Part shown: positions 1,510 to 44,710 of the stretch, piece by piece
Layout of the letters: each line of letters opens with the position of its first letter
Numbering within the stretch: the first letter of the stretch is position 1
Source: Tubulanus polymorphus
Lineage: Eukaryota > Nemertea > Palaeonemertea > Tubulaniformes > Tubulanidae
DNA length: 55,000 nt
Assembly (NCBI RefSeq): GCF_964204645.1
Contig: NW_027437478.1
Span: forward strand, 1 to 55,000
Direction: 5' to 3'
Translations under genes and position numbers: made by a program
The notes under the pieces: generated by a model
What the model saw: the letters and a program-made list of their open reading frames with translations, nothing else
The model's database searches: none
What the model was told of the DNA's origin: nothing

Positions 1510-4500
1510 GTATCCGAAAATGACAAATTTTCAGCAACTCAATCGATACTGGGACCGGTTGCTCAAAGGTTGGTTAAAATAACCGGTGGATAAGTCCCTA
1601 ACCATCGGTTAGTTAACCACAGGTTAAATTCAGTTCCTCAAAACCTCGGTTTGCCAATCGGTGGGTCAGGTTCCTTAACCAGTGGTTAAATCATTAATTC
1701 ACTCGTTGGCCCAATTTTCATATGCCCTGTCGCACTTTGAATGGAGTCTGTTTTGATTGATAATGACAGAAAAATTGAAAAAAAAGGAAACCAATTTTAG
1801 AGAAAAAATAATAATACTTGATTGAATACTTGATTGAAACGTAATGTTGTGGTGCGAATTCTATCTGTGCCTCTTCCAAGGTCCTCTCTTTCAAAATGCA
1901 ACCTTTCTCTTCTAACTTTCTAATTCTTGAGCAACCCAATTTGACCGACGGTTAAAAGTTTGACCAACCTTTGAGCAACCGTTCCTAGGTATATGAAAAT
2001 CACTCACTAACTCACTAACTAAACTCACTAACTGACAATTTGACTGAATTGCGTTGAACATACGATCAATTAAATAACGTAAAACGTCTTCAGAAAAACT
2101 TGACACATAAGTTAAGGTCTAAGTAACTACCTGACCTAATAAAGCATGTACCGAGGCGGCTAGTGCTTAAGCAAACCCATGGTCACTCAAATCCTCAAAA
2201 ATGCTATAGAGTCTAGAGCAAACTAATTCTATTGTTTTATGTTCTTTCCATTATCTGATCTAAATTGCAGAGTCAACCGTGTTCTCAGTGGGAACGACCG
2301 AATGTCCGGAAAACAATTGCACAACTGCAAGCATCGAGAAAAAGCATTATCTACTTAATGATATCATTAGATATCACGGCACCATAGGACAATATGAGAT
2401 AGACGTTGGAAAAATCGGGGATTTCACATTCGAGGTGAGGTTTATATTTTATTAATGCACGGCAATCCATCATCGATGAAAAACCGAAATCAAGGACCCG
2501 ATATCATAATTGTCTGTTATTATGATCACTTTTCATTTCTTATCTAACCTATTCAAAATTTCTCCCAAAATTGATTAGGGAAAAAGGGCGCTGAAATCCC
2601 CTAATTAAGAAACTACTTGGTTTAGGGTTTAGGAAAAATTAAGTTTATTTGAAAAAATACTACTGTTCTTCAGTGACAAATCCTGACGAGATGTAATTTT
2701 GATGGCGCTGACATTTCAAATGTTCAAAGCTTTTGTTTTTAACGATAGATTATGTAACATGAATACATAATAACCATTCTTGAGTAATTTTAGCTTTAAT
2801 GAGTGATGGATTATACTGAAATATGAGTGATTGAAAAGCGCAAATTGGAAGGAATTTTCACATCGCGTGTATATTATCGTTTAGATACAGCGGCCCAATT
2901 GCCTTCTACCTTGGAAGGTGTTTTGTCTCTATTCGTACAGTTGCATCGACCCTGTTTTAACGCAATGCTCGAAAACTGAATCAGTCTGGGCTTTGAAATG
3001 TCAGTCGCCATCGGTGTACAGTTTCCAAAAGAAAGCATGCGTCGACAGCGCCGGGAAAGTGAAGATTCAAAGCTATTTCAAGAATTACGATAAAGTACAC
3101 AGATTCTTCAGGACGGTCGTTTCTATTTCGCAATCGATATCGAAGCCCGGTAGACAGACGTTTCAGATAGTGACTGGTAACACTACCGTTGAGCCGGGCG
3201 ACGTCATCGTTGTTCAAAGCCCGAGTGTGACGCTGAGAAAGTTTCCGATCACTGCATATACCTCCGTACGCGGGAATAACGTGGCATCGAAACACTCAAC
3301 ACGCGATTACCGGATAATGGTTCAAGCTCATTTTCTTCGCGCTCTTGAAGTGCGATTCGCTCACACCTATACACCACAATCAACGAAGGATACGTTCAAC
3401 GTGACCGCTTCGGTGTTCGGCGGTGAAAATTCAACGGTGACCGTCAACGTTCTTGTGCCGATTAGAAATGTGAAGATTGATTCACCTGCCGCCGGTAGGT
3501 TACACGCAGACGATATGTATCAAATAACAGTGCAACAGCATTCATCACCAGGCCTACTTACTAACAGATACACACTATCCGTGCTAGATGGCTGACGGGA
3601 GAAATCCCACAATAATTCTGTCAAAAGATGAAAAATTCTTGAATAGAAGATTATATATGTCGAGAATTTTTATATATTCTGCTGTTTCATTTTGTTTCTC
3701 AGTACGCCTGATGATGGCTAAACGTTGCTCAAAATATATACCGATCCATTCAAGAATTTTTCATCTTTGACTGAATTATTGTGGGATTTCTCTCGTCTAC
3801 TTACAAACAGTTCATGAACTGAGAAAACCTAATTTCTTTCTTTCATCGAAGCAAAAACAAACGAAACAGTGACATTCTCGATACCGCCTCATTACGGCAG
3901 TGACGTGAAATATGTTTGGAAATTCTCCGCGAACGGTTCAGCGACGAATGAAACTACCGAAAACCGAACTACTCGTTCGTACACAAAATCGGGCACCTAC
4001 GACGTGTCTTTGAATGCCATGAATGATGTCAGTTTTGAAGGAGTTTCGGTAAGTATAAAAATGGGCACTTCCCGCCATCTTGTCCCTGCGCTCGGAAAGC
4101 AAAACAAAGATAAATTGATGCCATTTGTGGTTTGCCCACAATTGTAATCTTTTGTATATTTTTATATATTATATATTGAAGAAAAGCCGATTTGAGGGTT
4201 CAGAGACTTTCTGCCTCACGCAGAACTGACTGCTATTTGAGAGTATTTGCTACTCATTTAGAGGAGTTCTACTTCTCCCAAAAAATATCAAATTACTCTC
4301 AAAATCCGAGAACGTCTATTTTCAATTAAATCGCTATTTTTGGTATCGAGTAACCATCATTTGTTTGAAAACTTCTACGTTTAGAGATATCAGGTAACAG
4401 TCACTCACATAATCTTATATATCCCGACAAGACATTACGTCTATGTACAGTCATTTGATTGGCCAGTGGTTCGTCACACGTGCGGCAATAATATGCTACC

Positions 4501-7500
4501 TAATATGGGGATTTAGAAAGAAACTACTGGGGCCGGTCTTATAGAATTGTATTACCTTTAACCCGGGGGCTTACTTAATTCATTTTCGATTGAATTAGCC
4601 CCAGAATTAAAGGTAATACCGGTCTATAAAATCGGGCCCAGGGATATATCTTATTGGATATCTCTAATAAAGTATCGTCACGTGATCTTTACCTTTCAGA
4701 AACAAATCATAATTCAAGACGAGGTTCTGCAGTTGACGGTGAATGCAAGTAAACAATTCATCAAATTGGGTGACTCCGTTGAGGTAGCCTGGTACATTTC
4801 TCAAGGTATATACTATTGACTTATCTCTTGTGAAAAATCCCTGAAATCTTAATTAAGTACATCAAGGAATGAGTGCTCAATCTGTGCTCGGCAAAATATA
4901 GGTACTGATGTTGAATGCGTAATGACGATGGAAGCTGATAAAACGGTTAGGATCAAACCTGGAACTAATGAATCGCAACAAAGTCATAACGGTAGATATC
5001 ATAAATTTATTAGTTAATAGGCTCTCCGACAATGAAGATATTATTAATTACAAAACGATAATGCTTGATTCGATCTCGGATCTCGGAATCAGCAAATCAT
5101 CTTTGCGTTAACAGTCCGGGAGCCCAGCAGAACATTTAGCGTATAGACGAACTGGTTACCAATGACCGAAACCATTGTACATGGCAAATCTTTCAAAGAT
5201 CCATTGGTAAAAACCAGAGTCTGGCATTTCATGACTCCTGTATTTACCTCATGGGACCCGCCAAACTAGGGGTAAAAACTGATTAAAACAAAATTTTCAT
5301 AGGCACCCATCACTACCAGTTGCATTCGAACGTCTTACTAAAGTGATCTGGGCTCCTGGATTATGATATGTAATATCTCAATGTATCATAGGAATGGGCG
5401 GAACACTGGTTTATACATACGCAACACCTGGCAGCAGAACTGTAGTGGTAAACGCGACTAACATGGTCAGCTGGCAAGTGGCAAACTTCACCGCATATGT
5501 ACAGGCACCTGTTGGAAAACTGACGATGGAATCGCCAGTAAACGTGGCTGTTGATACGTCGAGAACGCTGACTTTCACGACAAAGACTGGGACAGAATTG
5601 ATATTGAACGCCACTATCGACGGCGTTTCAATAGCCGATGTTTCGTTGTTGCGAACAACGCCGACCATCAAAGGAAAAATCGTTATTCCGGGCCAGAAAA
5701 ACGTCCACAACTATACACTTAATTTGACCGTCTACAACGATATAAGTGTTTCAACAGCCGTTTCGATGATAGAAGTCGACGTGCCTTTTACGGACACGGA
5801 GGTCCTTTCGGTGGACCGTTCGTTCGCTCCGACGGCCGAGGATGTGAATGTTACCGTAGCGCCGGTAACAGCCACCCGGGTAACTGCACAATACGAGTTT
5901 GGAGACGGGACGCCGTCGGTAAACGACTGGTTCCAATCTAGCGACAATACGACCGTCTCTACGTTGCATCGATTTTCTAATCCGGGCAACTTTACGATCA
6001 AAGCTACGCTGAAAAATCCGCTCGGAAGCGTGTTCAGGGAATTCGCGGTTCTCGTCCAACATCCGGTGAGAGCGATCAATTTCTCGTCGAATTCGCCGCT
6101 CGTTTTGCAACGTGATAAAAAAACTGACTTGCTGATACCGCTAAAAGGTAAATGTTTCAGCCGAATTGATTTGTGTTTTTAAAAATTTTCTATCTAAATG
6201 AAGTGTATCAAAACTGCTAATTCGTGCAAACCAACTATGGAATGTTGACCGTTTTTTTCCAATTGTATCTATCTTACGAAACTTAACGAATCTGACGGTG
6301 ACATTTGCACCCATCCATTTTAGGAATGGTAGGGACGAACTTCATTGCTGCTGCTGGAATCCCGTTCCCAACGGATCCTATGTACGCAATTTGGGTAGAC
6401 GATTATAATCTAACAGACAACGGACCTTTCACCCTCGACGACCGTCGAATCAACTTCACCATTAACGAGCCAGGAACTTACCTGGTGCACGTGAATATTT
6501 CCAATCTAGTTAGTTTCCTCAACTACACACATCGAGTCGAGGCGGATATAAAGATAGACAGCGTCAAATCCGCCTATTTTGGAGTTAATATCGCCAAAAT
6601 CGGTGAAAACCTCAAGTTTGGAGCGACGGTTATGGGAGGATCACGGGTAAAATTGATTTTCGAATTTCAAGACGGATTGAACGAAACGGTTGACGCCGAA
6701 GTCGGCAAACTCAAGCAAGTGCAACACGCTTTTCAAACGGATGGCCAGTTTCTCGTCAACGTGACGGCGGTAAACAGCGTCAGTGTGTTATCAACGACGA
6801 ACAACATCCCGATGGTTATTCAAATCCCAATCGATCACGTGGGGTTGCATTTCATTACAACAACTAACGCCCCGATCCAGGAAATACCCCAAGGCGCCAC
6901 CTACAACGCAAAATTCCAAGTGAAACTGGCAGAAAATAAACCTTTCCCGACTAATTCAACGTGCGCGATTGATTTCGGTGACGGCGAAAATGTAACGGAA
7001 TTGATCGGCCAAAACGCCGCGCTCGGTCGAAGGAAAAGAAGGAGTTTAAGCCCTTCATTGTGCACAGTAGCTGGTGGATGCGTTTTGATAGAAATTCCAC
7101 ACGTTTATAAAAACGGTAATCCATTTCAAGTTCGGGCAAACCTCACCAACGCTGTCTCGCAGAAATCTTTGAATATTACGGCCAACATATATGCAAAAAT
7201 TGTGAACTTAGGCTTAAAGATCATGTATCTCGATCCCTATATCCCTGGATCGGATAAGTTGCGCGGTGGTTGGATGTTAAACGGTAAACCGAATGCCTAC
7301 CCGACTAGTTATGGAATCTATGGCGTTGCCACGCGCGACTGGGGCTCGCACATGCATTTAACGTGGAAATTCGGCGCAAAAACCAACGCCGTCATCTACA
7401 ATAATCTAACATCGAGTGAACACGTGTTCAACACTCCGCAGACGATCGCGGTGGAGCTCTCGGCCTCAAACGTATTGAATGCTGCCACGGCACCGGTGCA

Positions 7501-10500
7501 AACCATCGAACTGAGATATCCCGTGGGCGATATTAATCTAATCGTGGACCCAATCGTTATCAGGAATACGAGTATATCAGCGACATTGAAACTAGGAAAT
7601 AACGCCGAAGGAGCTTGCTATTATATAGATTTCAAAATTGCTACGCCTTGTCGGGAGTACATGTACGGCGACGCCGCATCCTGTCAAAGCGGCGAACACG
7701 GTTCAAAAATAGCCGCTATAGCGCCTGATTGCAAGAAATTCTTCACTGCCAATGAACGCAGTCAATATAGCAATGGTATACAGTTGCCGAAAATGAAAAT
7801 GATGACGGCCGCTTTTTATTCCGTTATACTGGACGCGGTAAACGTCGTTAGTCGTCGGACTTTACCGATCCCGTTAGTAGTTACCCGCGGGCCGTGTTAT
7901 CCCCCGAATGTCACTCTTCAAATCCCGGACGTATGCGCGAATATGCGATATCCTGACTGTGGGGACTATCGAAGATACCCAGGCGCCTTCGGCGTGCTAC
8001 GATCGGAGAGTCTCGTCGTAAATTCCGTCCCGATTCTGAATTGTACTTCGTCGAAAATCGCCAATTACACTTGGACCATTTTCAAACAGGAAAACGGCGA
8101 GTTCGTCGAGATGACCGAAGACGAGTTGAACGGTACTGTACTATCGTCTTCTAGTTTGCGTATGATTTACTTCGCGCCTCGGTTTTTCTCGTACGGGAAC
8201 TATCGGCTGGAATTGAACGTATCCATGCACGAAGAGCAGGGTATTTTCAAGGTTGTGTCTGGTGACATTTTCGTAATAAGAACGCCGTTAGTCGTCAACA
8301 TCAAAGGCGGCTACGAGACAACTATGAAATGGTTCGCTAACGTGACGGTGTCCGTCGGTGATTCTACCTACGATCCCGACGATCCGGATAGAGACATGTC
8401 GAAGTTGAAATTCGATTGGTATTGCAAAAAATACTGCGAAACTTTCGCCACATATGACCAGTATTTTAACGTGATGAGTGAAGGGAGGTTGTGTAATCCA
8501 GGGGATTTGACTCCGTTATTAGATGCGGCCAGCGCCAGCCAGTCCAGTAGACCACTCACCACCGTCGGATGTGTCAAATACGCAGATGAAATACAATATC
8601 CAGGTAGGAATTGATTCTAGAACATATAAAATGTATGTACATAATGAATGAATGTGTACTGTAATTCATAATGAAAACAGCAGAAACGACGAATTTCCTT
8701 TTAAGAAATCCGTTCTCCGTTTTGGCGCCCGCACCAAAACAACAACAAAAAAACGAATTCTCTCTAAAAATCCATCCTGGCCATAACATCTAGTGTGTTT
8801 GGTCCTTTCGACCCTTGAAAACCGATGGAACTGGTATCTTATCTACGAACAGTTAGAATTCCCTTTTTACAACTGCAGGTTTAATGTATGACGCAAAAGG
8901 CAAACGTATCGATACGGCCAGCTTCGTAGTTGATACCGCTAACTGGAACGAAGCTTTCAACTTAACGTTGAAACTCATGGTACTGAAATATGACCCGTTT
9001 TGGGGCGGCCTGAGAGCAGCGTATTTTGAGCAGTCAGTATCAGTGGTTAACGGCGACCCACCTGACATCAAAATGATGTAAGTGTTATCTTTGTAGTACG
9101 AATACAGTTAAGTCCCCTTCGTAGGACGTCTACCTTGTCCGCCGTAGATCCCCAAGCGTACGCGGCTAAATCTGACATTAATAGGCTTTAAACCTTTCAT
9201 TACAAGGGTTTTTTTTAAATTTTTTTTCAATAACAAAATAATTGCTTCATCATATCAGCCTCGATTTTAAATCTAGAAACTTTCACAAGTTACTAATTCA
9301 TCGTATTCATGATTTCTTTTGCTCCTAATTCATTATACTTTGATTTATCCTATTTGTTGTTCTGTAATTATATATCTACTAAAGTTATATTCATCTTAAT
9401 TTCTAGATCTCGTGATTTGAAAAAATTTATTTCTTCCGACATTTGATTCAAATTCATTACAACTTTTTGCTTATTTTATGCAGTCCTTCCGAGGTTTTGT
9501 GTGGAAAATACTCAAACAATAATTTTATTTTAAATACGAATTTCCGTTCCCTTCCGTTTTAAAACGTCCAAAATAGCTCATTTTTATTTTTTCCCTTCGT
9601 TCTCCCACTTTTTTGAAAAAAATCCCTACTCCGAGTAACTAAAAACGGCCTCGATATCACACATGTAAACTGTACGGAATCGATGACGTTTCTCAAAAAA
9701 AACTTCAAGACACATTTTCGGTAATTTCTGCAAAACCTTTGCGTAAATTTTGGTAATCGTTTTTGTTTTTAGATGTGTTACGAACTGTCAAACTAAAATG
9801 AATCCCAGCAGCCGATTTTCAATAGGAACGACCATCACAAATTTCCCGGGGCTTCGCGATTTCGGTTTCGAGTAAGTTTATACGACCCTTCTCCAATCAT
9901 AGGTAATGATAATCAAATCATTCGATGTTTTCCAGATAATCCGAAGTAATAGGTAACAAACTGGATAAGGCGTGAAGATACACAACATCCGTATAAGATA
10001 AATATGCGGGAGAAATCCCATAATAAATTCAGCCAAAGGTCATAAGTTCTGGAATGGAAGTGTATATTACAGTTGTGTTGTTACAGCGCACATGATAAAT
10101 AACAGTGGCCCCTACTTCGTCGGCGCCAACAAAGTAAAATGCGACGACTAAGATGGATTTTCGCGAGAACGAATGCTCAAAACACGTCTACCTATCATGA
10201 CGCAGCTCTGCAGAGACTAAGGCGCAAGGTATCCGATTGGCTATTGAACAGCTGCGAGCGCACGTGAAGGTTTAGTGATAGATGGCGCCAGTGCGTGGTC
10301 CTCAGTCTCTCGTCGCGTAAATACAATTATCCACCATTCGATGGACAATTTCCCTCAATTTGAGCAACGTTTGGGCTAAAGACTATTCGCAATCATCAGT
10401 ACGTCTGAACCAATTCGGAAGGAGTTTTGCTAATCGCTTTAGATATTTGGCTGAATTATTGTGGGATTTTTCACGTACATATACGTGTGGGATATATGTT

Positions 10501-22500: not shown

Positions 22501-25500
22501 TTGAAAACGTGTTGAGATGAACAAATATCGAAAAAAACCAATTGTATTCCCAATTAAAAAATCCATATCACGATTGATGCATTTGTTTAAGTCAGAATCG
22601 TGCTCTCAATTCAGGGGCGTTTACAAAGTATAAAGTGACAGTAATGCGCCTGGAGAAAGGAATGACACCGACGAACTCAGTGATGTTCTTTTTCCAATTC
22701 ATTTTTCTCGGGTTCTTGATCTACTTCGCGGTGCGCGCTTCGAAGAGACTGCGGAAAATCGGTCGACGTCAATATTTTAATGTAAGTATAAAATGTGTGA
22801 ACATATGAAGATTAGAACGGAGACGTAATTTTTTTGCATCGGATGCAATGTTAATTTTGGCCCGAATTCTGAGTCCTTTAGCTTCCTACTGGTTTGCCAT
22901 TTCTCATTACAATTTGTGATGGGTATTCTTTGGAAAGGGATGTTTTATACCTGAGACAGGTATTTTTCATCAGCCAATTATGACGCAATTGGCGGCCATC
23001 TTGGTGTCACCAGTACTCATTCGTAAGTTGGAAAAAGTTTTTCCACATTATATTGATACCTAAGCGTATTTTGCTACCACAATCAATTAGAAAGTTGTAG
23101 CTCATAACGTGTTCTATGATTGTGGTGAGTTTCAAGGTAATTGGATTTCGTATATGGCCACCAGGGGGCGTTGAATAATACAATATCTTAGCATTTCTTT
23201 ATTATATTCGTATCAATGCATATTTTGTAAACACAATCAATTGGAAAGTTGTAGCGCATGACATCATCTATGATTGTTGCGAGTTTTAAGGACATAAGTT
23301 TTTCTATATGGTCACCAGGGGGCGTTGAACAGTAGAATAACTTAGTATTTCCTTATTATATTGGTACCTAGGCATATTTTGTTACCATGATCAATTGCAA
23401 AGTTGTAGTTCGTGACATATTCTATGATTGTGGTGAGTTTCGAGGTCATTGGGTTTTGAATATGGTCACCAGGGGGCGTTGAATAGTAGAATGACTTAGT
23501 ATTTCCATATTAAATTGGTAACGAGGCATATTTTGCTATCACAATCAATTACAAAATCGTAGCTGCTGACATGTTCTATGATTTTGGTGAGTTTCAAGGT
23601 CATTGGATTCTGTATATGGTCACCAGGGGGCGTTGAATATTGGAATTGTTAGATTGTTGAGCATTTGAAACCACTTCCCAAGTGGGCATGGTGTCCCTGG
23701 GCCCGTAGTTTTCGAATAACTCACTATCTAACTATTCGTTATCTGGCTTTTGACGCCTTCAAAACGGTTACAATATTGTTTATAATGACATCCTGCGTTA
23801 TAGAAGGCGTTCTGTTTAAAGTCGATGTGCACAACGTCATCAATATTCGCGTTGCAAAATAAGAATTAAAACTGTGAATTTTGGAATTCATTTCTGTTTA
23901 GATATATTTCATGATTCTCATTTTATTTTTGATAAATTTCAATAATTAGTTTTTAGAAGATGCGGACTAAGTCATCAATACATCGGTGTTAGACTGGTTG
24001 CCAGTCAATTCAATTCATTAATCGATATATTAAAATCCGATATGACTTTCTTGATGCTTGATATTGTATGATTTATATCGTATTATTTTTTGTCGACAAT
24101 ATTAAAAGCAATATATGCGTTATTTTAAGGCGTCAATAAACGTTCAAGTTCGTTTTCTTTACAGTCATTTTGGGATGTTTACGAGTTTGCGGTGATACTC
24201 ATGGGATTTGTGGCCATATTCATGCAAATAGTGAGATTCTTCGGGGCGTACGCGATGGCTGAAATGATGGTGGACAGAACCAAATTCATAAATCTTGACT
24301 ATGTCGTTTTGTACGACGAGGTAATTTTCACAGAATACAACTAACGAAATGAGGAAATGATAAACTATGTAACGTTTGTAATAAACCATTTTACAGTTGC
24401 TAGCCGCCATTTTGTTAGGGTACTTTTGTCCCGTATTGTTGGGTCGTTTTTTTCTCTTTTTAAAAACTATCCGTGATGTGTGTTGTATCATATTTCATCT
24501 GTCCATGGATGGATTTTGACAGTTTCAGCAACATTCAAACCGCATAAATCTCTAGTTTTCAGTTATGTAAAAATCATTTTTCAAATTTGCAACAATGCGA
24601 CATGAGAGCGATATAAAAATATGCGGTCAGTTTTTTCTGTGCGCATAGAAATCAAGGGTACTGAACTTTGAAGTTCGTTATTTTCAGAAATAATTTTCTA
24701 AAAAATCCAAGCATTTCAAGAACTGTGCGCATAAATGCCCTCTTTCAGGTGAACTTTGAAATGTTAAGATATCTTGCCTAGTTTTTTTCCTATGGCACTT
24801 TACCTGCAGCGCATGTATTGTCATTCCGAGATTCGGCGCTGTTTTCTTAGCGCGTATTTCAGTATATGGGTGTTATTTTTTTCATTTTTACTACACTTGT
24901 CTCTACGGAAAATGGTTTTAATTGTTGGTACTAGTATCAGGTTTGAATATAACGGCATTAATACTGTATTCCGTTCTCCGGAGCTAGTTCGTAATGGCTG
25001 TATTGGTAGCCGCTTTTACAGCAGGCAGAGGCTTACGTACATGCACCCAAGAAAACCCAAACTATCCCTCTTTTGTTGTAAATGCAATCCACACACTTCT
25101 TGCGTTTTTGTGATGGTAGATGTCACTTTTTACTTTTAATCACCTGTGTCTGACATTAGGACTTGATACTTGATATTTCACCACCAATGCAAGGAAACGT
25201 TTTCCTATATTTTCTTCCCGAGCAAATCAATCTTGTGTGTACTTAAGTAATAGGGTTTTAGTTGTTTCAGGCCAAAGGTCGAACGGTCGAGCTCGTAAAA
25301 AATGAAAAAACATAAAAATAATAACAATTTCTACTTGAATTACTCGCAAAACTCATAAAAATGAACAATAATTCTCGCACACTCGAATTTATTTTTCATT
25401 TTCTACTCGCTAGAAGAAAGTGTGAGTAAAGTGTGAGTGAAATAATTCATAAATCATTGAATATTTATATGCGTTGAGTTCATTTTAATAAAAGTTTTGT

Positions 25501-28500
25501 TATTAAAATGAAGAAAGAAGAAGAACCCAACTTTAAAATCGAAATCAATGAAACCAATAAATCATTTTCACAGTTTTACATTAAAAATTATATTTCAGCA
25601 ACAAATTTAGTGTCCGCAAGGTATTATAAAATCGATAATATTACTATGATTAATCAAATATCATCAAATGAAACATATTTACTTACTGAACTAGTAGATA
25701 CTTTTGATAATGGCGTTAAAAATCCTAAAATATTCAATACAGTTTTAAATTTTAAAGGAACTTTAGATGAAAACATAATTAATATTCTTAAAACTCCTTT
25801 CAATGAAAGAAATGATGATATAATACTTTCAAAAGATTACAATGATTTGATTAACTTAAGAATTGAAAAAAGACAATTATATTATTTCAATTTTGATAAT
25901 AAACAAATTATCTATAATGAAAATTCATCAAATATTGCAGTTCAATGTAATTTAGATGATGAATTTAGAAAATTCAATCCTAATGAAAAAGTGCATTGTT
26001 ATTGCGGAGGTAAATATTTAAAATCACATAAATCAAAGCATTATGAAACAATTAAACATAAAAACTGGCGTAAAGAGTAACAATTCTACAATATAATTAT
26101 TGAATTGAGTTAAATGATTTAAATATCTAATAGACAGTTGAAATGATAAATATTTTGACAGTTGAAATGATAAATTGTTTAACAGTTGAAATGATAAATA
26201 TTTTGACAGTTGAAATGATAAATTGTTTGACAGTTAAAATGATAAATATTTTGACAGTTGAAATGATAAATTGTTTAACAATTGAAATGATAAATATTTT
26301 GACAGTTGAAATGATAAATTGTTTGACAGTTGAAATGATAAATATTTTGACAGTTGAAATGATAAATATTTTGACAGTTAAAATGAAAATTGTTTGACAG
26401 TTGAAATGATAAGACAGTTGAAATGATAAATATTTTGACAGTTGAAATGATAAATATTTTAACAGTTGAAATGATAAATTGTTTGACAGTTGAAATGATA
26501 AATTGTTTGATAGTTGAAATGATAAATATTTTAACAGTTGAAATGATAAATTGTTTGACAGTTGAAATGATAAATTGTTTGACAGTTGAAATGATAAATA
26601 TTTTAACAGTTGAAATGATAAATTGTTTGACAGTTAAAATGATAAATTGTTTGACAGTTGAAATGATAAGACAGTTGAAATGATAAATATTTTGACAGTT
26701 GAAATGATAAATTGTTTGACAGTTAAAATGATAAATTGTTTGACAGTTGAAATGATAAATATTTTAGCAGTTGAAATGATAAATTGTTTGACAGTTAAAA
26801 TGATAAATTGTTTGACAGTTGAAATGATAAGACAGTTGAAATGATAAATATTTTGACAGTTGAAATGATAAATTGTTTGACAGTTAAAATGATAAATTGT
26901 TTGACAGTTGAAATGATAAATATTTTAACAGTTGAAATGATAAATTGTTTGACAGTTAAAATGATAAATTGTTTGACAGTTGAAATGATAAGACAGTTGA
27001 AATGATAAATATTTTGACAGTTGAAATGATAAATTGTTTGACAGTTAAAATGATAAATTGTTTGACAGTTGAAATGATAAATTGTTTGACAGTTGAAATG
27101 ATAAATATTTTAACAGTTGAAATGATAAATTGTTTGACAGTTAAAATGATAAATTGTTTGACAGTTGAAATGATAAGACAGTTGAAATGATAAATATTTT
27201 GACAGTTGAAATGATAAATATTTTAACAGTTGAAATGATAAATATTTTGACAGTTAAAATGATAAATATTTTGACAGTTAAAATGATAAATATTTTGACA
27301 GTGAAAATGATAAATTGTTTGACAGTTAAAATGATAAATTGTTTGACAGTTGAAATATTTTAACAGTTGAAATGATAAATATTTTGATAGTTGAAATGAT
27401 AAATATTTTGACAGTTGAAATGATAAATATTTTGACAGTTGAAATGATAAATATTTTGACAGTTGAAATGATAAATTGTTTGACAGTTACATAAGTTACT
27501 AGATAAAGTAACTTATTGTTTTTTTATTTAAATCTTTTTAATTTCTATTCACGCTATTGGTTAACAAGAATTGACTAGAATTCAAATAGATTTAACAAGA
27601 AATTCAATAACTTTAACTGTTAGTATCACTCTAGTATTATTTCATTGTTTCTCTTACTGAATAAGCCAACTAACTAATATCACTCTTGTATTATCCTAGT
27701 CAAGTGTAAAGAATTTATAATATCATACTTGAATGAATTAAAACATAAATTACTTCTGTTACTTCATTTTCAGAAATAAAGCATAATATGTATTCAATAC
27801 CATTAATATGTATTTAATACATGGTATTAGGGTATCTAATAGGGTATCTAATACATGGTATTAGGGTATCTAATAGGGTATCTAATACATTGATACCTCA
27901 ACCCTCATACATTTCAACTAATATATTTTATATTTTCAACCAATTTAACAGTCTTATTCTCAATTTGAATTATATAGTTTATCATCTAATTCATGAATAT
28001 ATTTATGATTTCTCAAACTCTTTTTATTTTTATATCTTTTATTACAAATTTCACAACACTTAATATTATTCAATCTATCTGAAATATAATTCATATTTTC
28101 TATTAATTCAGTGTATCTAATTTTACAGCAATCATAGAATTCTAACAACTGTTTTATACTATAAACTGAGAATGAAAATAAACCTGTAAGCATAATAATT
28201 GATTTAATATTCTGTTGATTTTTATATATTAGATGTAATAAGTTTAATATATTTTCACTCATTTTTATAGTCAAAATATATGAAATTAAAAGACGCTGTT
28301 TTAATCCTCTCAATCATTTTCTAAATTAACTTTTTTATTCTTTTTATTTCTGTGATTGTTTCCATTTAACTTCTTTAATTTTTTACTCAATTTATTATTT
28401 TCATTCATCAAATCTTTTGAAATATTTTCATAGTAAAAGTATAATGCCGCCAATATTAAACCTCCAGCAACTAAATAATGTTTCAAATCACTTTTCCCAG

Positions 28501-31500
28501 TTGGAATGAAACCATCCATTTATTTAAGAGAAAAATTAAACAGTTTATAAAATATTTGCTAGTTTTTAATTAAATATTTTATAATCATTTTAAAAATATT
28601 AAACTTTTAAATGATTAAATCAAATAACAATTAAATTTACGGCCAAACAATTTATCATTTCAACTGTCAAACAATTTATCATTTCAACTGTCAAAATATT
28701 TATCATTTCAACTGTTAAACAATTTATCATTTTAACTGTCAAACAATTTATCATTTCAACTGTCAAACAATTTATCATTTCAACTGTTAAAATATTTATC
28801 ATTTCAACTGTCAAACAATTTATCATTTCAACTGTCAAACAATTTATCATTTCAACTGTCAAAATATTTATCATTTCAACTGTCAAAATATTTATCATTT
28901 CAACTGTCAAAATATTTATCATTTCAACTATCAAAATATTTATCATTTCAACTGTTAAAATATTTCAACTGTCAAACAATTTATCATTTTAACTGTCAAA
29001 CAATTTATCATTTTAACTGTCAAAATATTTATCATTTTAACTGTCAAAATATTTATCATTTTAACTGTCAAAATATTTATCATTTCAACTGTTAAAATAT
29101 TTATCATTTCAACTGTCAAAATATTTATCATTTCAACTGTCTTATCATTTCAACTGTCAAACAATTTATCATTTTAACTGTCAAACAATTTATCATTTCA
29201 ACTGTTAAAATATTTATCATTTCAACTGTCAAACAATTTATCATTTCAACTGTCAAACAATTTATCATTTTAACTGTCAAACAATTTATCATTTCAACTG
29301 TCAAAATATTTATCATTTCAACTGTTAAAATATTTATCATTTCAACTGTCAAAATATTTATCATTTCAACTGTCTTATCATTTCAACTGTCAAACAATTT
29401 ATCATTTTAACTGTCAAACAATTTATCATTTCAACTGTTAAAATATTTATCATTTCAACTGTCAAACAATTTATCATTTCAACTGTCAAACAATTTATCA
29501 TTTTAACTGTCAAACAATTTATCATTTCAACTGTCAAAATATTTATCATTTCAACTGTCTTATCATTTCAACTGTCAAACAATTTATCATTTCAACTGTT
29601 AAAATATTTATCATTTCAACTGTCAAACAATTTATCATTTTAACTGTCAAACAATTTATCATTTCAACTGTCAAAATATTTATCATTTCAACTGTCTTAT
29701 CATTTCAACTGTCAAACAATTTATCATTTTAACTGTCAAACAATTTATCATTTCAACTGATAAAATATTTATCATTTCAACTGTCAAACAATTTATCATT
29801 TCAACTGTCAAACAATTTATCATTTCAACTGTTAAAATATTTATCATTTCAACTATCAAACAATTTATCATTTCAACTGTCAAACAATTTATCATTTCAA
29901 CTGTTAAAATATTTATCATTTCAACTGTCAAAATATTTATCATTTCAACTGTCTTATCATTTCAACTGTCAAACAATTTATCATTTTAACTGTCAAAATA
30001 TTTATCATTTCAACTGTCAAAATATTTATCATTTCAACTGTCAAACAATTTATCATTTCAACTGTCAAAATATTTATCATTTCAATTGTTAAACAATTTA
30101 TCATTTCAACTGTCAAAATATTTATCATTTTAACTGTCAAACAATTTATCATTTCAACTGTCAAAATATTTATCATTTCAACTGTTAAACAATTTATCAT
30201 TTCAACTGTCAAAATATTTATCATTTCAACTGTCTATTAGATATTTAAATCATTTAACTCAATTCAATAATTATATTGTAGAATTGTTACTCTTTACGCC
30301 AGTTTTTATGTTTAATTGTTTCATAATGCTTTGATTTATGTGATTTTAAATATTTACCTCCGCAATAACAATGCACTTTTTCATTAGGATTGAATTTTCT
30401 AAATTCATCATCTAAATTACATTGAACTGCAATATTTGATGAATTTTCATTATAGATAATTTGTTTAGTATCAAAATTGAAAATATTTCAAATATTAAAA
30501 TATTTTAAATATTAAAATATTTCAACTGTCAAACAATTTATCATTTTAACTGTCAAACAATTTATCATTTTAACTGTCAAAATATTCATCATTTTAACTG
30601 TCAAAATATTTATCATTTTAACTGTCAAAATATTTATCATTTCAACTGTTAAAATATTTATCATTTCAACTGTCAAAATATTTATCATTTCAACTGTCTT
30701 ATCATTTCAACTGTCAAACAATTTATCATTTTAACTGTCAAACAATTTATAATTTCAACTGTCAAAATATTTATCATTTCAACTGTCTTATCATTTCAAC
30801 TGTCAAACAATTTATCATTTTAACTGTCAAACAATTTATCATTTCAACTGTTAAAATATTTATCATTTCAACTGTCAAACAATTTATCATTTCAACTGTC
30901 AAACAATTTATCATTTTAACTGTCAAACAATTTATCATTTCAACTGTCAAAATATTTATCATTTCAACTGTCTTATCATTTCAACTGTCAAACAATTTAT
31001 CATTTTAACTGTCTAACAATTTATCATTTCAACTGTTAAAATATTTATCATTTCAACTGTCAAACAATTTATCATTTTAACTGTCAAACAATTTATTATT
31101 TCAACTGTCAAAATATTTATCATTTCAACTGTCTTATCATTTCAACTGTCAAACAATTTATCATTTTAACTGTCAAACAATTTATCATTTCAACTGTTAA
31201 AATATTTATCATTTCAACTGTCAAACAATTTATCATTTCAACTGTCAAACAATTTATCATTTCAACTGTTAAAATATTTATCATTTCAACTATCAAACAA
31301 TTTATCATTTCAACTGTCAAACAATTTATCATTTCAACTGTTAAAATATTTATCATTTCAACTGTCAAAATATTTATCATTTCAACTGTCTTATCATTTC
31401 AACTGTCAAACAATTTATCATTTTAACTGTCAAAATATTTATCATTTCAACTGTCAAAATATTTATCATTTCAACTGTCAAACAATTTATCATTTCAACT

Positions 31501-34500
31501 GTCAAAATATTTATCATTTCAATTGTTAAACAATTTATCATTTCAACTGTCAAAATATTTATCATTTTAACTGTCAAACAATTTATCATTTCAACTGTCA
31601 AAATATTTATCATTTCAACTGTTAAACAATTTATCATTTCAACTGTCAAAATATTTATTATTTCAACTGTCTATTAGATATTTAAATCATTTAACTCAAT
31701 TCAATAATTATATTGTAGAATTGTTACTCTTTACGCCAGTTTTTATGTTTAATTGTTTCATAATGCTTTGATTTATGTGATTTTAAATATTTACCTCCGC
31801 AATAACAATGCACTTTTTCATTAGGATTGAATTTTCTAAATTCATCATCTAAATTACATTGAACTGCAATATTTGATGAATTTTCATTATAGATAATTTG
31901 TTTATTATCAAAATTGAAATAATATAATTGTCTTTTTTCAATTCTTAAGTTAATCAAATCATTGTAATCTTTTGAAAGTATTATATCATCATTTCTTTCA
32001 TTGAAAGGAGTTTTAAGAATATTAATTATGTTTTCATCTAAAGTTCCTTTAAAATTTAAAACTGTATTGAATATTTTAGGATTTTTAACGCCATTATCAA
32101 AAGTATCTACTAGTTCAGTAAGTAAATATGTTTCATTTGATGATATTTGATTAATCATAGTAATATTATCGATTTTATAATACCTTGCGGACACTAAATT
32201 TGTTGCTGAAATATAATTTTTAATGTAAAACTGTGAAAATGATTTATTGGTTTCATTGATTTCGATTTTAAAGTTGGGTTCTTCTTCTTTCTTCATTTTA
32301 ATAACAAAACTTTTATTAAAATGAACTCAACGCATATAAATATTCAATGATTTATGAATTATTTCACTCACACTTTACTCACACTTTCTTCTAGCGAGTA
32401 GAAAATGAAAAATAAATTCGAGTGTGCGAGAATTATTGTTCATTTTTATGAGTTTTGCGAGTAATTCAAGTAGAAATTGTTATTATTTTTATGTTTTTTC
32501 ATTTTTTACGAGCTCGACCGTTCGACCTTTGGCCTGAAACAACTAAAACCCTATTACTTACTTAATAGAAAGTATTCATAGAAAGTAGCTGAAAATTTGC
32601 CCGACCCCATTTGTCCAGCTTTTTGACCACTTCTCCATCCATCTAATTTCAGTAGATTTTTATGTAAATTAATTGATAGACTACTGATTTAAATGGTCAT
32701 CATACTCGATTTTGAGTGTTATATTTCTTTTCTTCTTCCATCTCGATATAGGCCTATATATTCTCTTCCCACGCGCATCTTCGAATACGTGATCAAAATG
32801 CTGCTCAGTCTCACTGCTAAAACTGGTCAAAAAAATCCCTTAAACTCCGACATCTCTAATGTCTTCGATCTATTATTGCATAAATGACGTAATATTAAAA
32901 CCTGATACTCGTACCAACAATTAAAACCATTTTCAATTTCCATTAAAACCAGACAAGTGTAGTAAAAATGAAAAATAACACCCATATACTGAAATACACG
33001 CAAAGAAAACAGCGCCGAATCTCGGAATGACAATACACGCGCTGCAGTTAAAGAGCCATAGGAAAAAAACTAGGCAAGATATCTTAAAATTTCAAAGTTC
33101 ACCTGAAAGAGGGCATTTATGCGCACAGTTCTTGAATTGCTTGGATTTTTTTAGAAAATTATTTCTGAAAATAACGAACTTCAAAGTTCAGTACCCTTGA
33201 TTTCTATGCGCACGGAAAAAACTGACCGCATATTTTTATATCGCTCTCATGTCGCATTGTTGCAAATTTAAAAAATGATTTTTACATAACTGAAAACTAG
33301 AGATTTATGCGGTTTGAATGTTGCTGAAACTGTCAAAATCCATCCATGGACAGATGAAATATGATACAACACACATCACGGATAGTTTTTAAAGAAGAGA
33401 AAAAATGACCCAACAATACGGGACAAAAGTACCCTAACAAAATGGCGGCTAGCAACTGTAAAATGGTTTATTGTCATATGTTTGTATAATGTTATCTGTC
33501 TATATTTGCAGTTGTCGGTTTATTTACTCGCAATGATCGTATTTCTATCGACACTTCAAGGGCTGAAACTACTGCGATTTAACAAAAGGATTTGCGCCCT
33601 GGCTTTGATGATGAAGTGGTTGTCCTGGCCACTAATGCGATTTATGGTCGTGTTCTTGGTTCTGTTTTTCGGATTTGTTAGTTTGTGTCACCTGAAGTTC
33701 ATGGTCCGTTTGAGAGAATATTCAACGTTCATTGCTAGTATGGAGACATTATTGAACATGATGTTAAGTAAGTGTTATTACTAGGATCTCACTGAATGAT
33801 GTTCTACTATAGGGACATAGGTTCAGAGGGTTCCATCCGGAGGACATTGATTTGGGTGCCACCCATTCCGTCTCTATCAAAGCCCAACGAACGCAGCACT
33901 GGGAAAACGGGTGATAGAAACATGTTTCTGGCGTTTCTCTTGATCACTAGCGTTTACAAGAAACGATAAACATTGTTTCGGGAAAAGATGTTTCCGAGGT
34001 CAAACGTGTTTTCGTTTGTGGGCTTGAAGCACAAAAGGGAAATACAACAGGGAAACACAGGAAACATGTGCTTCCTGTTTCTGTGCTTCACCGCGTCGTG
34101 TACGTCGCGCTTAAGTGATGGGGAGGGGGTCCATTTTGAGGTTTCCGAATCGACCATTCTCACGCCCAAATTATTCAATTTTATAACGTTTCAATTCATT
34201 GTATACCTCCATTCTAGATAAATTCAATTTCCGACGAATGCAGGCAGTCAGTCCCGTGATGGCTCCGTTAATGTTCGTGGCATTCGTTATCATCGTAAAT
34301 TTCATGATGGTTAACTTCATGGTTGCGATCATTTTGGAGGGCTACACGTACGCGATGGATTGCATAGCTGGACAAGCGAACGAGTATGAAATTGTGGATT
34401 TTATGATGCAATCATTCAAAAAAGCCATCGGTATGACTAGAATAGAAGGGAACCCTACAGAATGCCGGTTGGAATATTTGGAAGGTAAACTGGATTTAAA

Positions 34501-43367: not shown

Positions 43368-44710
43368 ATCATGGAGGTTCAAAGGCTGCTTTCAGAAACT
43401 TACATAATTTGACAAGAGTATTTTTTGGGGAATTGAAAAGGGTTATCAGTTTATAATGACTAGGTCTTGTTAAACAGAATTGTGGTAAGCACTGTGATCT
43501 TAGAATTGTATATTCTGGACATTCAAATAAAAAGTGATATTCATTTCCAATTACATTTTAGTTGCATTTTAAACAAAATCTCTGGTTTTGAGGTGTATTA
43601 CTATATCTACCGGTTTCAATCGGTAGTTTGTGATTACTACATCTAAACCGGCACAATGTGCGTCGCAATGAAATAGGGAGGTCATGCAAATATGGTTCGA
43701 ACTTTAGTTCAGTTTTGATCATAGAATACATTAGTCCTTTTGAGCTGTTACGGCAATCGGCCCTCCATTTTTGAGTAAATTGGTCTTGAAGACGCTGTTT
43801 GATCAATTCACCAATAAGTTCAGGATTTACTCGCTCGTGATTTACCCAGTAGTTCATTAAACCACACTCTTCTAGGGTGCATTTTATATAACTTAACCAC
43901 TTGGTTGTTTTTCCATGGAGCAAGTGCATATTAAAAAGCATTTTATACATTTGACCCGATAATGTCGATACATCATTCCATAAAAGCTTTGCCCAGAACT
44001 TAACCATTTAACTCTTGATGATTATCGCAAGCGGGGTTCTACCTAATTCACCATAGACCATATAATTTGGGGTAGACCGGTTTAGATGTAGTAAATATTT
44101 ACAAAAACGCAGGTGGTATTTCTCTAAAATAGCAGTTGATTCGTAACCCCATATTTCACATGCATGCGTAAGGATTGGTTCGACCATAGCATCAAAAAGT
44201 TCTAAACCTACGTCTGTATCTAAAGAGTACTGTTGGACCTTTTTCAAGACAAAAAATAGAGCTTTATTTGCTCTTTCCCCAATTTTCTTTCGACATTTTG
44301 CAAATGTACCAGTGTAATTAAATAATATTCCTAAGTAGACAAATTCGTCAACAACTTCGACTTCATGTTGGTGTATAAAAAAAGTTGGTTTTAATCTTGT
44401 TTTCCTTTTTTGGAATATTAGTATTTTAGTCTTTGCTGGGTTGATTTTCAATTTCCATAGGTCACAATATTCAGACAAAGAATCAAGTGCTAATTGTAGG
44501 CCTTCCATCGAGTCTGATAAAATGAGGGTATCGTCTGCATACAAAAGCACTAAAAGTCACAACCAGAAATTTACCTCATCATTATTATCAATACATACAC
44601 TTTGACAGCCTTTACTCAATAGAAAGTTTTCAAGGTCGTTTACATATAGACTAAAAAGTAGTGGGGATAGGTTATCTCCCTGCTTGAGACCAATATGACT
44701 ATGAGAAGTC
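43368..44710 (-). pseudogene. 5'-truncated LINE relic: reverse transcriptase C-terminal part
   Basis: Read leftward from about 44710, one frame gives IGLKQGDNLSPLLFSLYVND, then the catalytic YADDTLILSDS, then FVYLGILFNYTG and a long thumb/connection region. It ends with FCLKCN and EYHFLFECPEY, the Cys/His-like tail of non-LTR ORF2 proteins. Three in-frame stops interrupt it: TGA just before YADD, TAA at 44008-44010, and TAA at about 43555. There are no frameshifts. The endonuclease and the 5' half of the RT are missing. The clade (CR1/Rex/RTE-like) is undetermined. Confidence 0.88.

Follow-up and report, generated by a model that had tools for sequence, protein, structure and literature searches.

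Polintons (Mavericks) are recognized by AG ends and 6-bp target-site duplications; they are regarded as ancestral to many eukaryotic DNA viruses, and animal Polintons may still live as viruses. Non-autonomous Polinton-N elements are contained in Repbase. Virophages such as mavirus are small DNA elements that exploit a larger virus and can integrate into the host genome, and they keep capsid and replication genes of their own. Transpovirons of Mimiviridae are described as linear DNA of ~7 kb that has inverted ends of 380-520 nt, encodes a membrane protein and a Tlr1-like helicase with polymerase domains, and depends on a larger virus, the partners being giant viruses of protists (PMC7031253, PMC11071308). 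A further report has them carry regulatory elements in common with their partners (PMC11464507). Here we describe an element of 7,313 bp from the nemertean Tubulanus polymorphus, located at positions 25246-32558 of a 55,000-nt stretch (contig NW_027437478.1, forward strand; hereafter the window).

We consider it probable that this element is a helper-dependent satellite with genes of its own, integrated in the genome, whose helper is a Polinton active in this worm now or very recently. Small elements of this kind are called satellites below, and the full-size Polintons of the same genome helpers. The original prediction, made from the window alone, had left a choice between a satellite, a compact relative and a distinct parasite of the same integrase; a satellite fits best. 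Among the titles listed in the literature searches, with subscription journals mostly outside coverage, no gene-carrying Polinton satellite was described, and the exact phrase 'non-autonomous polinton' was absent.

The element, its insertion site and its genes

The left terminus at 25246 reads AGTAATAGGG..., and the right terminus runs ...CCCTATTACT up to 32558 (AG...CT). Boundaries and arms are as follows.

25240..25245, no strand: target-site duplication TACTTA, left copy (single TACTTA at empty sites)
32559..32564, no strand: target-site duplication TACTTA, right copy (6 bp, perfect)
25246..26389, + strand: left inverted arm, perfect part within the element (inverted-repeat comparison)
31415..32558, - strand: right inverted arm, perfect part within the element (inverted-repeat comparison)

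The arms were detected as 25244-26389 and 31415-32560 (1,146 nt, 100% complementary); the outermost two bases on each side are flank matching by chance, and 1,144 nt lie within the element. A gapped alignment of the arms extends over 2,047 columns at 97% identity. The element thus has the 6-bp target-site duplication of Polintons as well as their 5'-AG...CT-3' ends and long terminal inverted repeats, and on re-reading the AG termini, coordinates, duplication and very long arms were all as first described.

The insertion target is a repeat of 1.76 kb bounded by inverted ends of 584 bp (window 24380-25245 and 32565-33472), of which locus L064 is an uninterrupted copy. The two flanks fused with one TACTTA gave uninterrupted matches at each of the 40 places scored (86 candidates), over 301 or 300 bases at 94-100% identity; the junction was read at two loci. 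Because empty copies of the repeat carry TACTTA once and unbroken, we conclude that the element was inserted with a 6-bp duplication, and the contrary case raised with the original prediction, that TACTTA is no duplication, did not arise. Across the T. polymorphus assembly (267.8 Mb, 77 contigs; contigs are labelled C and fetched loci L), a 24-mer of one end type was counted 1,420 times, with satellites, helpers and inner copies of the ends all contributing. A 42-mer from the tandem repeat was counted 1,414 times, and the reversed controls gave 0 in each case. The unbroken empty sites together with the count of the end 24-mer exclude chance.

Inside the element we found the following features (ORF, open reading frame).

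25508..26080, + strand: gene190, left copy, 190 aa (ORF)
31724..32296, - strand: gene190, right copy, identical (ORF)
30287..30482, - strand: gene190, third copy, truncated to a 3' part (inverted-repeat match of 25885-26389 with 29978-30482)
28310..28519, - strand: mem69, 69 aa, one moderately hydrophobic stretch (ORF)
27960..28262, - strand: zf100, 100 aa, moderately hydrophobic stretch and C2H2-like pattern (ORF)
26133..27488, + strand: 24-bp tandem array (GACAGTTGAAATGATAAATNNTTT; repeat scan)
28644..31671, - strand: 24-bp tandem array in opposite orientation, broken by the truncated gene190 (repeat scan)

The 24-bp repeat fills roughly 4 kb of the element, with opposite orientations on its two sides. 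Neither this repeat nor the third copy of gene190 figured in the original prediction. All three predicted genes are present as ORFs, the 190-aa gene in two identical copies; their first descriptions as a 69-aa membrane protein and a 100-aa C2H2 protein held only in part. The membrane label of mem69 is not established, because its hydrophobicity is moderate (highest 19-residue mean 1.27; zf100, 1.48), and the finger of zf100 falls under every Pfam cut-off (best E 0.0012). The gene190 product combines an N-terminal part of unknown fold with a C-terminal CxC...H...H pattern; its predicted structure was unusable (mean predicted local distance difference test score, pLDDT, 36.5). Pfam gave a single hit under its cut-off for gene190 and none for mem69, and PHROG hits had E values of 0.0025 or worse and were taken as chance. 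No relative of gene190 at E <= 0.001 was found among 414 candidates from a set of 5.8 billion proteins, nor any in IMG/VR by sequence or by alignment; mem69 and zf100 had none in IMG/VR, the one of these two sets searched with them. As predicted, standard Polinton genes are missing, the ORFs of the element including no protein-primed DNA polymerase B, RVE-type integrase, A32-type ATPase or jelly-roll capsid protein. They likewise include no virophage-type major capsid protein and, with no large ORF present, no Tlr1-like helicase with polymerase domains.

In an alignment of gene190 from L051-L060, a 15-16-residue repeat in the linker varies between one and three I-x-x-QC units, and the variant at L051 has a different C-terminal finger.

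A family of small elements and its full-size relatives

With the terminal 265 bp as query, the assembly yielded at least 61 matches; 40 out of 1,638 candidates were scored, and many of the matches form inverted pairs. We read 23 elements at both ends, helpers included: the window element, 12 small copies read whole, a copy on C3, six end pairs, two full-size Polintons and one recombinant. Perfect 6-bp duplications flank 21 of the 23. Outside this set stand L043/L044 (both ends not placeable), L045/L046 (ends beyond the fetched stretch), L017 (apparent twin of L016), and L018, L021-L023, L025 and L026 (one end read or end damaged). The original prediction had asked for genome-wide copies with the same ends and duplications and for a longer relative with polymerase and integrase; both exist, and the opposite outcome, no other copies anywhere, did not occur.

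The 13 complete small copies measure 1.6 to 7.3 kb, some with damaged or missing genes. gene190 has at least 285 matches in the genome (150 listed) and zf100 at least 150. From the 150 listed gene190 matches we obtained 32 inverted pairs, 31 of them spaced 0.96-8.9 kb and one 19.2 kb; a listed zf100 is enclosed by 21 pairs and a listed integrase by none. On C1, the first 100 places of the end 24-mer often form inverted pairs ~165-430 bp apart, the end region holding an inner inverted copy of itself. L016 (C14, unplaced) and L017 (C2, a chromosome) carry an insertion of the same length with complementary duplications in opposite orientation, which looks like an allelic duplicate of the assembly.

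The two full-size Polintons, C4:21374685-21392401 (17.7 kb) and C5:16072654-16090558 (17.9 kb), were among the paired end matches. A Pfam scan of the C5 copy, which was read in two pieces, identified an integrase (rve, 2e-09) and a Pox_A32 ATPase (1.8e-11); a chromodomain match fell under the Pfam cut-off, and no protease was identified. A 1,341-aa protein contains the family-B polymerase motifs DFES, DANNLYG, NNAFYG and YLDTDS. None of the Pfam polymerase models matched it, so motifs and context are the basis of its assignment. For a 415-aa protein, 928 relatives were found with identities of up to 77%, and its structural model (pLDDT 88.7) matches major capsid proteins of PBCV-1, iridovirus and mavirus, best the PBCV-1 capsid (E 4.7e-17, template modelling score 0.63, root-mean-square deviation 7.0), as well as viral capsid proteins in BFVD. 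Judged by this model, it is a double-jelly-roll capsid protein; a search for its relatives in IMG/VR gave no pattern match. The C4 helper is 94% identical to the C5 helper over the 8.2 kb compared, with a capsid protein 98% identical; an early break divides its polymerase frame into ORFs of 108 and 1,222 aa. All 113 helper integrases scored of 2,103 candidates are 96-100% identical and 99 have no stop, which indicates that helpers are numerous and recent.

Full-size Polintons also sit within other Polintons (left flanks of L029 and L031; L065, 1-1833). The N-terminus of the helper polymerase (L032:4772-8797) has, by eye, finger-like patterns with the H-x5-H spacing of the gene190 finger, and the same protein has an Endonuclease VII match slightly over the Pfam cut-off.

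Satellites and helpers have their outermost sequence in common.

25246..25499, + strand: left terminal 254 bp common with helpers (C4, 93% over 1-254; C5, 97% over 1-193)
32305..32558, - strand: right terminal 254 bp, inverted, common with helpers (end comparison)

The outermost 20 bp exist in two variants, one in the C5 helper, the window element and several satellites, the other in the C4 helper and other satellites. They account for 19 and 28 of 49 ends, with 2 other; these ends include four helper ends, the right end of the C6 recombinant described below and the end at L023. On a gene190 tree without a starred branch, end type changed 4 times, versus a shuffled mean of 4.9-5.0. Ends and duplication size are common to the small elements and an autonomous Polinton of the same genome, as expected of non-autonomous Polintons.

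Beyond the ends, window element and helpers match in short segments, mainly AT-rich stretches and repeats of terminal sequence. BLASTN (E 1e-6) to the helper interior gave no match in 12 of the 13 complete small elements. In the remaining one, L015, about 500 bp in the centre (about 2790-3290 of the element) are 81-93% identical to a central, almost wholly intergenic helper region. At the protein level, L010 gave five tblastx lines against the helper, blastp revealed no convincing helper homologue of the satellite proteins, and tblastn of these proteins against the helper produced weak AT-rich matches down to E 0.006. On these comparisons, the satellite interior does not appear to derive from the helper as in a deletion-type non-autonomous Polinton, nor does the satellite appear to be a compact relative with hidden core genes.

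Two candidate homologies of gene190 were rejected. A tblastn match to the helper polymerase (E 0.006, uncorrected for composition) disappeared when tested against shuffled sequences (162/300), and comparison with a 113-aa helper protein gave an hhalign probability of 0.3. The helper-derived piece in the centre of L015 may be a cis-acting element.

Selection, gene starts and recombination

In-frame pairwise Nei-Gojobori ratios of non-synonymous to synonymous substitution (dN/dS) were 0.35 for gene190, 0.19 for zf100 and 0.15 for mem69. In the shifted frames they were 0.74 and 0.73 (gene190), 0.63 and 2.31 (zf100), and 3.58 and 1.68 (mem69). We used matches covering 90% of the query from the window, L009-L034 and L051-L062, without L017 and L026, and dropped stop-bearing copies (gene190 4/36, zf100 2/11, mem69 0/13); the sets comprised 28 distinct sequences over the first 141 codons of gene190, 8 of zf100 and 9 of mem69. 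An earlier run on fewer loci, with 152 codons of gene190, stop-bearing copies kept and pairs of dS > 0.03, gave 0.35, 0.25 and 0.14, respectively. These estimates suggest that gene190, zf100 and mem69 are under purifying selection. A satellite should possess genes of its own that have no helper homologue and are kept by selection, and this is what we found, selection by pairwise estimate and the shuffle test for gene190 only.

Two gene starts of the element resemble those of helper genes.

25483..25510, + strand: promoter-like motif TTTTAATAAAA-N14-ATG at the gene190 start (type of the helper polymerase start)
28520..28543, - strand: promoter-like stretch before mem69 (type preceding the helper capsid gene)

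The upstream regions of 15 helper ORFs contain two ATG-proximal patterns, spotted by eye. A matrix built from all 15 helper starts, unselected by class, was compared with four sets of control ATGs: 95 others from satellites, 700 non-start ATGs from helpers, 1,693 from the host and 4,332 simulated. The mem69 score was reached by none of these (0/95, 0/700, 0/1,693, 0/4,332) and the gene190 score by 0/95, 3/700, 0/1,693 and 8/4,332. With matrices of a single class, 0, 0, 0 and 4 controls reached gene190 (polymerase class), and 0, 2, 0 and 1 reached mem69 (capsid class). The strict polymerase-type pattern was found at gene190 starts in most satellite loci and at several helper starts, and not once in 47 kb of host DNA; it was absent at L020 and L026 and matched off the start at L012, L019 and L023. 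By these scores, gene190 and mem69 have starts of helper-like appearance.

Helper and satellite sequences also occur within one element. At C6:15622364-15640398, the left part (L065) consists of a plain helper end and the start of the polymerase region, and the right part (L024) of helper genes for capsid, ATPase and integrase, beyond which lies a satellite arm that holds gene190 and a 24-bp array. The element was read as two stretches with 8.5 kb unread between them. It is bounded by AGCCTG on both sides, a perfect duplication, which indicates insertion as one unit. Judged by this arrangement, the C6 element shows recombination between helper and satellite. C8:2.48-2.50 Mb, which is bounded by a gene190 arm on one side and by a helper end on the other (duplication and outer left end unread), is probably a second recombinant. 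At L023, a satellite end adjoins decayed helper sequence (far end unread). A further candidate at C8:7.05 Mb was not borne out as a recombinant.

The two arms of an element are more alike than the arms of different elements. Of 16 elements compared over the first 250 bp, two being helpers, 15 had an arm identity of 97.6-100%, versus a mean of 92.4% between elements; the exception was L027 (85%), whose arm is only ~140 bp long. L015 is a complete palindrome of 6.1 kb (98.4%). The C3 copy (L033/L034, C3:18761173-18777846) is a 16.7-kb near-palindrome in which a reverse-transcriptase/RNase H element is mirrored in both arms, 99.6% identical; at first a candidate Polinton, it proved to be a satellite with this insertion in each arm. 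The excess of identity within elements, together with L015 and the C3 copy, indicates that one arm serves as template for the other, which a linear genome replicating from its ends would permit.

Elsewhere in the window, positions 23036-23646 hold four copies of a 154-bp tandem repeat and 44008-44556 a reverse-transcriptase fragment. A polycystin-like ORF (6302-8614; REJ, PKD) belongs to a gene that runs on at both sides; the window lies on the unplaced scaffold C61. Its one match at E <= 0.001 is an uncharacterized T. polymorphus protein, 98% identical over 50% of the query and encoded on the chromosome-size contig C4, so that the window gene is a haplotig or a recent duplicate.

Mechanism, alternatives and known systems

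In the proposed cycle, the helper is a Polinton of 17-18 kb that encodes a family-B polymerase, an integrase, a packaging ATPase and a double-jelly-roll capsid protein. Its genes would be expressed first, and those of the satellite would then be switched on through the same signals, gene190 by the polymerase-type motif and mem69 by the capsid-type motif. Since its terminal ~200-250 bp are those of the helper, the satellite could serve as substrate for helper polymerase and integrase, the former copying its linear DNA from the common ends and the latter inserting it with a 6-bp duplication. Replication would copy one arm from the other, which would produce near-identical arms, a duplicated gene190 and sometimes a palindrome of the whole element. 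The satellite may also be packaged in helper particles. Purifying selection would imply that each copy benefits from the proteins it encodes, as with passage of single genomes through particles or cells and not solely as a pool within one nucleus; proteins acting in trans within one nucleus would not stay intact in each copy. That each copy keeps its own genes intact hence argues for single-genome passage and a particle stage. Packaging and the roles of the three proteins are what we infer here; as a guess, gene190 and zf100 might bind DNA or termini, and mem69 might be a particle or exclusion protein at membranes. Tentatively, and as a possibility to which we do not commit ourselves, the satellite could be a satellite virus of an endogenous animal Polinton virus, that is, a hyperparasite with selected genes of its own that uses the helper's origin, integrase, promoters and particle, is transmitted as a single genome and recombines.

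DNA transposons usually yield non-autonomous elements with the ends of an autonomous copy, and the small elements might be ordinary non-autonomous Polintons, internally deleted or end-capturing and moved in trans, their ORFs captured passengers without a role. The size range of the small copies, their damaged or missing genes and the central helper piece in L015 are what such an origin would leave. Yet one gene set recurs in many elements, all three genes appear to be under purifying selection in frame and set apart from the shifted-frame controls, 12 of 13 small elements have no BLASTN match to the helper interior, and two gene starts are like those of the helper; we therefore regard passengers without a role as unlikely. 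The small element might instead be a second genome segment that serves the helper, in a divided genome or a mutualism. Three findings would suit such a partner: each end variant is present in helpers and in satellites alike, a recombinant joins helper genes to a satellite arm, and satellite gene starts look helper-like. Most helpers, however, seem complete alone, 110 of the 113 listed integrases having no listed gene190 within 20 kb (150 of 285 gene190 matches listed), and the C5 helper is itself equipped with genes for replication, integration and a capsid, which makes a partnership quite improbable. Finally, gene190, mem69 and zf100 had no recognised relatives in the searches made, as might be expected of a separate mobile family, moved by a different recombinase, in which AG ends and 6-bp duplications arose by convergence. 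The terminal 193-254 bp are 93-97% identical to those of the Polintons, in both 20-bp variants, and this homology exceeds what convergence would give; an independent family is scarcely credible.

Several observations weigh against a helper-dependent satellite as set out above. Helper dependence is deduced from shared ends and gene starts. Among the 23 elements, L037/L038 lacks the duplication as well as AG at its left end, and the duplication of L027 matches at 5 of 6 positions. The pairs behind the dN/dS values are not independent, and the values are estimates. The zf100 start is weak, its score being reached by 1/95, 13/700, 2/1,693 and 60/4,332 controls, and the two motif classes were drawn post hoc from the upstream sequences, only the 15-start matrix being unselected. 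gene190 has neither a detectable relative nor a usable model, and the 24-bp arrays are not accounted for. Nor is gene190 strictly confined to satellites: it stands with helper genes in the C6 recombinant, probably also at C8:2.48 Mb, and beside decayed helper sequence at L023. With at least one helper-gene element carrying a satellite-type arm, the boundary between satellite and helper is leaky.

Taken together, shared ends and start signals, selection and recombination point indirectly to a virus-like cycle in which single genomes are transmitted. If the satellite-virus reading is correct, a tier of parasitism like that of virophages and transpovirons exists inside animal nuclei. The T. polymorphus elements offer a testable animal system for hyperparasitism. 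To our knowledge, such hyperparasitism is otherwise known only from viruses of protists.

With Polintons/Mavericks (adintovirus-like), the window element shares 5'-AG ends, 6-bp duplications and long terminal inverted repeats, but in 7.3 kb it carries three unrelated genes and 24-bp arrays instead of theirs. Like non-autonomous DNA transposons and Polinton-N elements, satellites have the ends of a full-length element of the same genome without its enzymes; in contrast to them, they possess a recurrent, selected gene set and helper-like starts, and are no simple internal deletion. Unlike virophages, they have no capsid or replication genes of their own. Although a member of no named family tested, the satellite, by analogy, works most like a transpoviron: both measure ~7 kb and have inverted ends, and we infer for the satellite a comparable dependence on a helper, whereas it differs in that it encodes no helicase, is integrated in the chromosomes of an animal host and has a Polinton for a partner.

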